NCBI GenBank assembly: GCA_019873735.1 | Contig: JAIOAQ010000005.1 | Coordinates: 1-64,000 of the forward strand | Direction of reading: 5' to 3' | Length of the DNA: 64,000 nucleotides | Origin: Chloroflexota bacterium | Lineage (GTDB): Bacteria; Chloroflexota; Anaerolineae; Anaerolineales; Villigracilaceae | Part shown: positions 3,752 to 54,184 of the stretch, one piece after another | Position numbering within the stretch: the first letter of the stretch is position 1 | Layout of the letters: the number at the start of each line of letters is the position of its first letter | Notes under the pieces: model-generated | Told to the model about the DNA's origin: nothing | The model's database searches: none | Seen by the model: only the letters and a program-made list of their open reading frames with translations | Position numbers and translations under genes: made by a program

Positions 3752-3830
3752 AACAGGATATACAGGATAAACAGGACAGGATTTTTTGCACGCCTCAATC
3801 ATTTATCCTGCCTATCCTGTCCATCCTGTT
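3752..3830. repeat. ACAGGAT-type inverted repeat element
   Basis: Several ACAGGAT/ACAGGAC units on the left (3752-3785) are mirrored by ATCCTGT units on the right (3801-3830), with a T-run and a short loop between. A similar element lies at 26095-26162. Such arrays of ~8-nt units are non-coding; an open frame crossing it is not a gene. Confidence 0.65.
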
Positions 3831-3860
3831 CAAAAAGGTAGAAGGCACCCAGAGCGACCA

Positions 3861-3869
3861 TGTTATAAT
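3861..3869 (+). promoter_or_regulatory. Extended -10 promoter of the selenoprotein-trpS operon
   Basis: TGT-TATAAT matches the extended -10 form (TGn plus TATAAT) and lies 21 nt before the ATG at 3891. No -35 match is obvious, which is normal for extended -10 promoters. A GGAG ribosome binding site lies between. Confidence 0.6.
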
Positions 3870-3890
3870 TCCGCCGCGGAGAAAAAAACA

Positions 3891-4127
3891 ATGCTCAAAA
3901 TCAGCATCACCTATTGCGCTGTTTGACATTACACCGACCGGGCCGTGAGCCTGGCCACCGAACTCTTACGCAAACACGAACACAACATTGCATCGTTAAC
4001 GCTCATCCCATCGGATGGCGGCTGCTTTGAAGTAACCGTCAACGATCAGTTGATTTACTCCAAACTGGCCACCGGCCGCCATGCTGAGGCTGGCGAGGTG
4101 CTTGGGCTGATTGAGAAATTAATCTAA
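3891..4127 (+). CDS. SelW/SelT-like Rdx-family selenoprotein (in-frame TGA)
   Basis: Reading from the ATG at 3891 through a TGA at 3924-3926 gives a 78-residue protein starting MLKISITYCAVU, continuing without another stop to TAA at 4127. The motif CxxU (Cys9, Sec12) sits exactly where the Rdx/SelW-SelT-SelH thioredoxin-like family has its redox CxxC or CxxU. The rest fits the bacterial family: LTLIPSDGGCFEV, then LIYSKLATGRHAEAGE near the C terminus. The ATG has GGAG 10 nt upstream and an extended -10 promoter before it. A hairpin follows the TGA, as bacterial Sec decoding needs. It lies 17 nt before trpS and is probably co-transcribed. A gene caller that stops at TGA would start it wrongly at the GTG at 3945. 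Expected role: a small thiol/selenol oxidoreductase, substrate unknown. Confidence 0.88.
3924..3956 (+). other. Candidate bacterial SECIS element
   Basis: The in-frame TGA (3924-3926) is followed by a hairpin: CCGGGC (3938-3943) pairs with GCCTGG (3949-3954, one G-T pair) around the loop CGTGA. The GU in the loop is about 19 nt after the TGA, within the range known for SelB-binding bSECIS hairpins. The pairing is inferred by eye. Confidence 0.6.
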
Positions 4128-4144: not shown

Positions 4145-5131
4145 ATGGCAAAGAAAGGCCGCGTTTTTTCGGGCATCCGTCCTACCGGACGCGCCCATCT
4201 GGGAAATTATTTGGGCGCTATCCAGAACTATGTCGCTTTGCAGGACGAATATGAGTGCATTTACTGCATCGTGGACCTGCACGCGTTGACGACCGTTGAA
4301 GATACCATCAACCTGCGCCAGAACACCTATGAGATGGCGCTCGACCTGCTCGCGGCCGGCATTCGTCCAGAGGAGACCATCCTTTTCGTCCAGAGCCATG
4401 TCCCTCAAGTGACCGAACTCCATACCATCCTCTCCATGGTCACGCCGCTTGGCAAATTGACCGATCTGCCCACGTTCAAAGAAAAAGTCCGCCAGAATCC
4501 GAACAATGTCAATTACGGGCTGGTTGGCTACCCGGTGTTGATGAGCGCGGACATTGCCCTCTACAAGACAGATGTTGTGCCGGTAGGCATTGATCAGGCC
4601 CCACACCTGGAATTCGCCCGTGAGACCGTGCGTTCATTCAATTATCGTTACAACACCAACGTCCTCAAAGAAGCGGCCATGAAGACCACCGAAGTGCCTA
4701 AAGTGCTTGGCATTGACGGCAAAGAAAAGATGAGCAAGAGCCTGGATAACCACATTGAGATCGCCGCCACCCCCGAAGAGACGCTGCAACGAGTCATGAT
4801 GATGGTCACAGACCCCCAGCGTATCCGCCGCCAGGACCCGGGCAACCCGGATGTGTGCAACGTGTTTTCCCTGCACAAAATCTTCACGCCAAAAGAAGAC
4901 GTGGAGATGATTAACGTCGAATGCCGGCGGGCAGGCATCGGCTGTGTGGACTGCAAGAAACGCTTTGCCGCCAACTTGAACAAAGCGCTCGAACCCTTCC
5001 GCACCCGGCGCGCCGAACTCGCATCCCAGCCAGACCGGGTGATGGCGATCCTGGAAGACGGCGCAAGGCGCGCCCGCGCCATTGCCGAAGAGACGATGAA
5101 AGAAGTGCGGGCAGCCGTTCAATTGCCATAA
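4145..5131 (+). CDS. trpS: Tryptophanyl-tRNA synthetase
   Basis: The enzyme charges tRNA-Trp with tryptophan in the cytoplasm. The 328-residue length is normal for bacterial TrpS. Class I signatures are present: the HIGH-like element [12 protein letters not shown] near residue 15 and the KMSKS loop ([12 protein letters not shown]) near residue 198. The ATG at 4145 was chosen because GAGG lies just upstream; an in-frame TTG at 4130 is less likely. It follows the selenoprotein gene by 17 nt and precedes dtd by 8 nt. The three genes read as one operon. Confidence 0.97.
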
Positions 5132-5139
5132 CCCCTCAC

Positions 5140-5577
5140 ATGCGCGCGCTCATACAACGCGTTAGACACGCAAAGGTGATTGTCGAAGGCCAGACCATTG
5201 CCCAAATCGGGCAGGGGCTGGTCATTCTTTTGGGTATCGGCCACGGCGACGGGGAAGAACAGGCCCGCTTTTTGACCGAAAAGATCGCCGGTCTGCGCAT
5301 TTTTGAAGATGAACAAGGCAAAACCAACCTGTCTATCCAGGATGTCAAAGGCGAAGCCCTGGTCGTCTCGCAATTCACGTTGTATGCCGACACGCGCAAA
5401 GGACGCCGCCCCTCCTTCACCGACGCGGCCCTGCCAGACGTCGCCGCCCCGCTGGTGGAGCGCTTTGCCAGTCTCCTGCGTGAGCAGGGCGTGCCCACCC
5501 AAACCGGTCAGTTCGGGGCGCATATGCTGGTCGAGATCCACAACGACGGCCCGGTGACCATCTGGCTGGAACGATAA
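5140..5577 (+). CDS. dtd: D-aminoacyl-tRNA deacylase
   Basis: This 145-residue protein matches DTD over its whole length, including the two active-site motifs [17 protein letters not shown] (residues ~77-93) and NDGPVT (~135-140). DTD removes D-amino acids (and glycine from tRNA-Ala) mischarged onto tRNA, a proofreading job that suits its place directly behind trpS. The ATG at 5140 gives the canonical start MRALIQRV; the longer upstream frame is out of frame with trpS and has no support. Confidence 0.96.
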
Positions 5578-52423: not shown

Positions 52424-52675
52424 TTACTCTTCCATCAGCGCGGTGGTCACCCAGGTGGTCACTTCCGCCGGGGTGGGGATGCGCCCCGAGGAGACGACTT
52501 TTTCGTTGATGACCAACCCCGGCGTGGACAGGATGTTGTACTTCATGATTTCGTTGTAGTCGGTCACTTTGACGATTTGGGCCTCGATGGCCAGGTCGCC
52601 AACGACCTTTTGCGCAATCTGCTCGACACGTTTGCAGTTTGCACAACCCGAACCGAGAACTTTGATGGTAAGCAT
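52424..52675 (-). CDS. Small thioredoxin (TM0996/MTH895 family)
   Basis: The 83-residue protein starts MLTIKVLGSGCANCKRVE, with the CxxC active site at residues 11-14, and has the cis-Pro loop LSTPGLVINEKVVSSG. It is a mini-thioredoxin of the type often encoded beside ArsP-like permeases. AGGAG precedes the start. It follows the permease gene by 33 nt and could reduce ArsC or the permease. Confidence 0.92.
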   Translation of the reverse strand: MLTIKVLGSGCANCKRVEQIAQKVVGDLAIEAQIVKVTDYNEIMKYNILSTPGLVINEKVVSSGRIPTPAEVTTWVTTALMEE

Positions 52676-52708
52676 AGCGAGTCGCTCCTTGTTCGATTTG
52701 GTATTCAA

Positions 52709-54184
52709 TCAATCTGCGAATGCCTTTTCCGCAATCGCTTTTTGTTGGTTGCGCCGGTTGACCAGCCAGAGCATGCCGGCCAGCAGGGCCAGGAAGAGCG
52801 CCAGGTAGAGCGCCACCAGGCCGAGACTGACGCCGTCCACCCAGGCGCCGTAGATGAGGCCGGCCAGCGTGCTGAAGAGCGCCACCCAGCCCACATACGT
52901 CCAGGCTTTCAGGCGGCCGATGATGACCGAAATCATCAGGATGCTTTGCAGGCTGAGTTCGGGGTCGGCCATCAGGTAGGCCAGCAGGGGACCGCGGTGC
53001 ATGCCCAGGCTGAGGAACATGTTGGCAATCGGCACTTCCACCAGGGTGGGAAAGTACATGAAGACGCCGAAGAGCACGCCAACCAGGTTGCCCAGCAGGG
53101 TGTTCTGCCCGGCCAGGGCTTCGATCCATTCGGGCTTGATAAGCACGCGGATGACGCCCACGGCGAAGACGCCCACCACCAGCAGCGGGAAGATCTGCTT
53201 GACGAAGCGCCACGATTCCCACAGCCAGTCGCGCAGTTCGTCCTCGCTCAGGCCCTTGAACATCAGCCAGACCAGGGCGGCGATGGCGAGGAGCACGCCG
53301 AAGAAGCGCCCCGTGAACCGGATATCCAGCCCGCCGGCGTGCGGCGACATGCCAACAGCGGCGGTGAGCAGCGTCAGCCCAACCAGGCTCATGGCGATCC
53401 ACGTCCAGGCGTTGAAGCCTTCGTGGATGTTGTCCAGCCCCTTCCAGGAGGTCAGGCCGATGAGCAGGAGCAGGCCGATGAGAATCGCGCCCTGGGCAGT
53501 GACCCCTTCCTGCCCCTTGCTGGCATCGTAGGGTACGAGACGGTACAGGAAATCCTGGAAGCGGTCCATGCCGGCGATGGGCAGCGTGACCTGCCCGTAG
53601 GAGTTGGTCAGCAAGCCGATCTTGAAGGTGCCGGCCAGCAGCAGGGCCACCAGGAGCAGCAGGAAGATCAGCGCGGCGCGGCGCATCTTCCCTTGACCGG
53701 CAAACATGGCGTCCGTGGCGGCATCATGCTCGATGTCGGAGCGGCGGAAGATGAGCGCCATGATCATGCCAATGCCGATGCCGAAGGTCAAAGAGAGGAT
53801 GAGGCGGGCAAACGCCAGGTCAAGGCCGATGACGCCGCCCGTATAGACCAGCGCCAGGATGTTGGCGGCTGGCGCGAAGAACAGAAAAGTGATGGCCGGA
53901 CCGATCCCGGCGCCTTTCTTGTAAATCCCGGCAAACAGGGGGACAATGGTGCAGGAGCAAACCGCCAGCACCGAGCCGGCCAGCGCCGCGGCCGGGTAGG
54001 CGATCCACTTGGGGGCGTTGCGTCCCAAAAAGCGCGTGACCGACTCCTTGGGGATGAGGGCGGTCATTGCCCCGGCGATGTAGAAGGCCGGCAGCAGGCA
54101 CAGCAAGACGTGCGCGGCAAGGTAAGCAGCCAGATTGCCCAGGCCGCCATAAAGCATGTTGGTGAGAAATGAGAGGATGTTCAT
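52709..54184 (-). CDS. ArsP-like permease (DUF318/SO_0444 type)
   Basis: The 491-residue membrane protein has about eleven hydrophobic segments in two halves. The first half carries the family's Cys motif VLAVCSCTIVPLFAGIYKKG followed by AGIGPAITFLFFAPAANI. Relatives include ArsP, which exports trivalent methylated arsenicals, and SO_0444-type metal exporters. The ATG at 54184 overlaps the arsR stop (ATGA), which confirms the start and the coupling. The second half has a similar GPLLAYLMADPELS segment. Confidence 0.88.
   Translation of the reverse strand: MNILSFLTNMLYGGLGNLAAYLAAHVLLCLLPAFYIAGAMTALIPKESVTRFLGRNAPKWIAYPAAALAGSVLAVCSCTIVPLFAGIYKKGAGIGPAITFLFFAPAANILALVYTGGVIGLDLAFARLILSLTFGIGIGMIMALIFRRSDIEHDAATDAMFAGQGKMRRAALIFLLLLVALLLAGTFKIGLLTNSYGQVTLPIAGMDRFQDFLYRLVPYDASKGQEGVTAQGAILIGLLLLIGLTSWKGLDNIHEGFNAWTWIAMSLVGLTLLTAAVGMSPHAGGLDIRFTGRFFGVLLAIAALVWLMFKGLSEDELRDWLWESWRFVKQIFPLLVVGVFAVGVIRVLIKPEWIEALAGQNTLLGNLVGVLFGVFMYFPTLVEVPIANMFLSLGMHRGPLLAYLMADPELSLQSILMISVIIGRLKAWTYVGWVALFSTLAGLIYGAWVDGVSLGLVALYLALFLALLAGMLWLVNRRNQQKAIAEKAFAD

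Follow-up and report, generated by a model that had tools for sequence, protein, structure and literature searches.

A SelW/Rdx-type gene with an in-frame TGA, a predicted selenoprotein gene upstream of trpS in the Anaerolineales

A 2006 survey listed SelW-like selenoproteins among those of bacteria and noted few Cys homologues in organisms that use selenocysteine (Sec); it counted three selenoproteins in the Chloroflexi (PMC1794560). In the Global Ocean Sampling the SelW-like family is the most abundant selenoprotein family, with 427 Sec genes and 56 Cys homologues (PMC2398784). The hairpin that directs Sec insertion in bacteria has been described by a model with a stem of 4–16 bp, a loop of 3–9 nt, a spacing of 16–37 nt between UGA and loop, and an energy of -7.5 kcal/mol or lower; a G occupies one of the first two loop positions and is often followed by G or U (PMC13188914).

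Here we describe rdx, a gene in the 64-kb stretch of DNA analysed (the window), which forms contig C5 of a draft genome (3.06 Mb, 71 contigs). The TrpS encoded in the window shares up to 88% identity with its counterparts in named assemblies of Anaerolineales, Anaerolineaceae and Chloroflexi, and the host is therefore a member of the Anaerolineales within the Chloroflexota. We consider it nearly certain that rdx encodes a SelW/Rdx-type selenoprotein, a small thiol/selenol oxidoreductase into which Sec would be inserted at UGA 3924 by means of a SECIS element and SelB.

The interrupted frame and its product

Direct reading gives a frame that opens at ATG 3891, closes at TAA 4125–4127 and has TGA 3924–3926 as its sole interruption (Table 1), precisely the three codons named in the first-pass annotation. 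That annotation had placed the TGA at the second position of a CxxU motif, which is incorrect: the motif is C9-A-V-U12 (CAVU, residues 9–12), and the TGA, residue 12, is its fourth position. The read-through product has 78 residues: MLKISITYCAVUHYTDRAVSLATELLRKHEHNIASLTLIPSDGGCFEVTVNDQLIYSKLATGRHAEAGEVLGLIEKLI.

Table 1. Features at and around rdx in the window.
Feature	Position	Strand	Basis
Possible extended -10 promoter element TGTTATAAT	3861..3869	+	direct reading; weak
Ribosome-binding site GGAG, 9 nt before ATG	3878..3881	+	direct reading
rdx/selW gene, 78 residues, predicted Sec at residue 12	3891..4127	+	Pfam Rdx E 5e-21; TIGR02174 above cut-off
In-frame TGA, predicted to be read as Sec, last residue of CxxU	3924..3926	+	TGA in relatives; U/C alignment
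Predicted bacterial SECIS hairpin, 6-bp stem CCGGGC/GCCUGG, loop CGUGA (3944–3948)	3938..3954	+	comparison; PMC13188914 model
trpS, tryptophan--tRNA ligase, likely same operon	4145..5131	+	TIGR00233 above cut-off
dtd, D-aminoacyl-tRNA deacylase, likely same operon	5140..5577	+	TIGR00256 above cut-off

A hexamer model was trained on the long genes of the window and used to score all of its TGA read-through frames. The rdx frame had the highest rank in coding potential before and after the TGA, with equal scores for the two parts (0.33 and 0.34). By the same measure no second convincing selenoprotein was found in the window; the next candidates resemble ordinary neighbouring genes. Elsewhere in the window a permease-like gene (52424–53296, minus strand) ends in a TGA, after which a small thioredoxin-like protein (MLTIKVLGSGCANCKR...) follows in the same frame; these are probably two adjacent genes, not a case of read-through.

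The product matches the Pfam family Rdx (PF10262; 75 bits, cut-off 22.6, E 5e-21) and the NCBIfam SelT/SelW/SelH family TIGR02174 (59.7 bits, cut-off 34.2); it falls short of the equivalog cut-off of NF041051 SelTWH_Campy (79.3 bits versus 88). No other Rdx match occurs in the genome. The assignment to a SelW/Rdx-type protein with a CxxU motif, made at first from the letters only, is thus borne out by the profiles, whereas the expectation that standard annotation would miss the gene was only partly right, since TIGR02174 matches above its cut-off.

An AlphaFold model built from 31 aligned relatives has a mean pLDDT of 95 and places the CxxU motif between the first strand (2–9) and the first helix (15–32). 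Its best matches in the PDB are the SelW-related structures 2obk, 2fa8 and 2p0g (TM 0.92–0.94), and the predicted fold is the thioredoxin-like fold of SelW. Invariant residues among the 31 relatives include Y8, C9 and residue 12. These residues bear on the possibility that the UGA is a true stop and that a shorter protein of 60 aa starts at GTG 3945, a frame (3945–4127) which does appear among the listed open reading frames. Such a protein would begin after the first strand and would not contain the invariant YC..U motif, whose Y8 and C9 stand upstream of the TGA; moreover, GTG 3945 falls within the SECIS loop, and constraint on the RNA accounts for its presence there. We regard a genuine stop at this codon as extremely improbable.

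Conservation of residue 12 and the route to selenocysteine

Two sets of genomes, mostly draft assemblies, were compared: 61 closer relatives from the family and order, and a wider sample of 400 from the phylum. Rdx matches were found in 46 of the 61, and all 46 contain exactly one internal stop, a TGA. In the phylum set 186 genomes have a match, and each listed match is either uninterrupted or interrupted by a single TGA; an internal TAA or TAG is present in none of the matches listed from either set. Residue 12 is U in 93 and C in 27 of 120 copies aligned phylum-wide, with no other residue at this position, so that the Sec-or-Cys alternation which the first-pass annotation had looked for in homologues holds for every aligned copy. 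Comparisons with 34 family members gave a pS of 0.82 versus a pN of 0.25 downstream of the hairpin and TGA, which shows that the sequence beyond the TGA is under selection as protein. Judged by these comparisons, the Rdx/SelW gene is real and conserved across the Anaerolineales.

A single exception to Sec or Cys at residue 12 lies outside the 120 aligned copies. Upstream of trpS in a metagenome-assembled genome (MAG) of Anaerolinea thermophila (locus L140, about 1264–1450) there is a decayed rdx with CGA at the Sec position, a disrupted frame and no hairpin; this decay could also be an assembly error.

The existence of a decayed copy lends some colour to the notion that rdx itself is a pseudogene, killed by mutation of a Cys codon to TGA. 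This would need a recent, lineage-specific TGA and is refuted by the conservation of the codon in all 46 relatives; the constraint on the downstream frame and the lack of any TAA or TAG among the matches listed also count against it, and the probability that the gene is dead is close to nil. Much the same applies to a sequencing or assembly error that turned TGC or TGT into TGA. The genome is a draft, as its many contigs attest, but the same TGA occurs independently in dozens of assemblies, including those of the isolates Levilinea saccharolytica, Thermanaerothrix daxensis and Bellilinea caldifistulae; this refutes the error, to which we attach a vanishingly small probability.

Reading the TGA as Sec calls for a dedicated machinery. 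The first-pass annotation had surmised that the cell makes Sec and had named selA, selB, selC (tRNA-Sec) and selD as the genes to look for, and all four have counterparts in the genome: SelA (E 1e-129; TIGR00474, 536.7 bits), SelB (E 5e-104), SelD (E 4e-106) and a tRNA-Sec with anticodon TCA (UCA). On the strength of these matches, the host has a complete Sec route. The selD gene has an in-frame TGA of its own, near its start (contig C56:7281–8216 of the host genome G000, locus L043; motif SCAGUASKL), and its product is itself a selenoprotein candidate. No in-frame TGA was found in the matched stretches of the host's molybdopterin oxidoreductases.

Across genomes the machinery accompanies the TGA. 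A strong SelA match is present in 94 of the 95 genomes with a listed Sec-rdx, compared to 31 of the 43 with a Cys-rdx only (Fisher p 3e-6) and to 228 of the 305 other genomes (p 2e-9). Three genomes have a TGA-containing rdx and an incomplete set: G012 (88% complete) has SelB and tRNA-Sec, with SelA not found; in G038 (93% complete) SelA was not found and SelB is a fragment at a contig end; in G377 (77% complete) neither was found. These gaps fit incomplete assemblies, without proving them. In G042, from the same order, SelB and tRNA-Sec are present while Rdx and SelA were not found, which means either that this genome uses Sec but has no rdx or that its assembly is incomplete.

Leaky reading of UGA by tRNA-Trp is known in bacteria, and the next gene is trpS; the codon might accordingly specify tryptophan, or be passed by near-cognate read-through, instead of specifying Sec. 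However, TGG stands at residue 12 in no copy, the alternative in the 120 copies always being Cys, and the TGA goes together with a SECIS and a full Sec machinery, both of which are present here. We give this reading of the codon almost no credence.

The hairpin downstream of the TGA and its two registers

The hairpin that the first-pass annotation had noticed 12 nt downstream of the TGA, with GU in its loop, is there: CCGGGC-CGUGA-GCCUGG has its first base at +12 and an energy, taken alone, of -8.8 kcal/mol. With a stem of 6 bp, a loop of 5 nt, G-U at loop positions 2–3 and a spacing of 17 nt, it agrees with the published model in every respect (PMC13188914), as the proposed prediction of a bacterial SECIS would have it. 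Within its 48-nt context the free energy is ordinary (z -0.46); energy alone would therefore not prove the hairpin, and it is comparison that does. Likewise, Sec and Cys copies cannot be told apart by the total folding energy of the 48 nt that follow the TGA.

Of 89 distinct Sec copies, 77 have a hairpin with 5 bp or more in the stem and a 5-nt loop NGUNN; none of 27 Cys copies has one. For the null model, codons were exchanged for synonyms drawn from the same set of genes in 200 shuffles; this gave an expectation of 4.7 ± 2.2 and a maximum of 10. With a relaxed definition (G or U after the G; loops of 5–6 nt) the hairpin was found in 119 of 130 copies, compared to 19.8 ± 3.8 under the null model, and in one of 28 Cys copies. 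The codons under the hairpin are near-frozen in the host's family (GCC 35/35, GTG 31/35, AGC in 20 of 22 Ser codons, CTG 31/35) and more uniform than most others in rdx. On this comparative evidence the element is a predicted bacterial SECIS, and it is conserved.

Strong hairpins occur little outside two registers that stand 4 nt apart. In register A the loop starts 18 nt after the TGA and is mostly CGUGA or CGUGG; in register B it starts 22 nt after the TGA, with the loops AGUUU, GGUCU, CGUGC and AGUCU. The stem of register B covaries: pair 20–28 is U-A in 21 copies and C-G in 18, and pair 19–29 is G-C in 28 and A-U in 12. Register A is found in most of the host's family and in a few members elsewhere; register B is found in most of the phylum and in two genera inside the host's family (G022 and G010). 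Traced on a protein tree, the register changes about 10 times, at least three of these changes being forced by well-supported branches; the number is soft, the tree being weakly resolved from 78 columns. Six sequences (L019, L133, L168, L180, L193 and L198) can form both stems in the first 48 nt after the TGA, and such genes could be intermediates of a register shift, the step that a change of this kind would need. A SECIS with two registers that has shifted several times within a phylum seems new, and the occurrence of both registers in one gene family provides a natural test set for the distance tolerated between the UGA and the loop that binds SelB.

In the mechanism we propose, SelB, held by the hairpin, would deliver Sec-tRNA(Sec) to ribosomes at the UGA, and Sec would be inserted there. 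The completed protein, with a thioredoxin-like fold and Cys9-Ala-Val-Sec12 as its redox site, would then act as the small oxidoreductase named above. Our best guess at its role is general thiol redox repair, with the protein kept reduced by a thioredoxin-type system.

The trpS–dtd neighbourhood and comparison with known systems

The gaps between rdx and trpS (17 nt) and between trpS and dtd (8 nt) point to co-transcription, and the three genes likely form one operon. Of the first-pass annotation's claim that rdx is co-transcribed with trpS and dtd, the adjacency is confirmed and conserved; the co-transcription is what the short gaps suggest. In 43 of 50 loci from the order trpS lies downstream of rdx on the same strand, mostly 9–110 nt away and at most about 240 nt, and in four more dtd follows rdx directly. 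The reverse view, from 80 trpS-anchored loci in named genomes, shows upstream of trpS a CxxU rdx in 59, a divergent CxxC protein in one, a decayed copy in one and no match in 19, some of the last with little upstream sequence; the gap to trpS has a median of 12 nt and is 60 nt or less in 53 of 60. Among cultured strains, Bellilinea caldifistulae GOMI-1 and Thermanaerothrix daxensis GNS-1 each have an rdx with the motif CAVU ahead of trpS. Outside the order trpS was beside rdx in none of the loci examined. The rdx–trpS linkage seems new.

A scan of the plus strand upstream of rdx found no sigma-70 -35/-10 pair; the extended -10 element in Table 1 is graded weak for want of a -35 partner. Just upstream of rdx there is also an inverted repeat (3753–3834; arms 3753–3771 and 3802–3820) of ATCCTGTC units. 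Its 16-mer ATCCTGTCNATCCTGT occurs 13 times in the genome, compared to once for the reversed control, and the unit therefore looks like a dispersed repeat.

It is also conceivable that the Sec codon serves, in addition, as a selenium gauge. With selenium, translation would continue into trpS–dtd; when selenium is low, the stop at codon 12 would uncouple translation or expose the message, and expression of trpS–dtd would fall. The tight, conserved spacing to trpS in the 60 trpS-anchored loci and the order-wide linkage are in keeping with such a switch; against it, the spacing varies up to its 240-nt extreme, no rdx was found ahead of trpS in 19 of the 80 trpS-anchored loci, and none of the loci examined beyond the order shows the linkage. 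We think the switch unlikely. If true, it would link the charging of tryptophan and the proofreading of tRNAs to the availability of selenium. As for the selenoprotein itself, the lasting link to trpS offers a lead on what bacterial SelW does.

A limited search of the open-licence literature found no earlier description of the Anaerolineales lineage, the trpS/dtd linkage or the two SECIS registers, and, among papers on selenoproteins and Anaerolineae or Chloroflexota judged by title and abstract, none that describes this gene. That the Anaerolineales, cultured type strains included, have a well-conserved SelW which mostly uses Sec is of interest in a phylum credited with only three selenoproteins in 2006 (PMC1794560).

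Because SelW-like proteins have long been known in bacteria (PMC1794560, PMC2398784), rdx is familiar in type, with two modest new details, the register shift and the trpS linkage. It shares with the described bacterial SelW-like selenoproteins the family, as defined by profile (PF10262, TIGR02174), the CxxU motif, the position of Sec and the dominance of the Sec form in Sec-making bacteria; it differs from them in its Anaerolineales lineage, its conserved linkage to trpS (often with dtd) and its SECIS in two registers. The SelW-related proteins of Agrobacterium (2fa8), Vibrio (2p0g) and Pseudomonas (2obk) have the same predicted fold, but are only about 30–35% identical to the rdx product in sequence. 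Mouse SelW (2npb) belongs to the same family by sequence profile (E 3e-6), while its structural match to the rdx model is looser (TM 0.57). In eukaryotes the SECIS sits in the 3'UTR, whereas in rdx it is an in-frame hairpin. Compared to the bacterial SECIS model of the E. coli formate dehydrogenase type (PMC13188914), the rdx element shares the short loop whose positions 2–3 are G and U, the 6-bp stem and the 17 nt between UGA and loop; the rdx family departs from it in that the loop starts at either +18 or +22 after the UGA, with some members able to form both stems.
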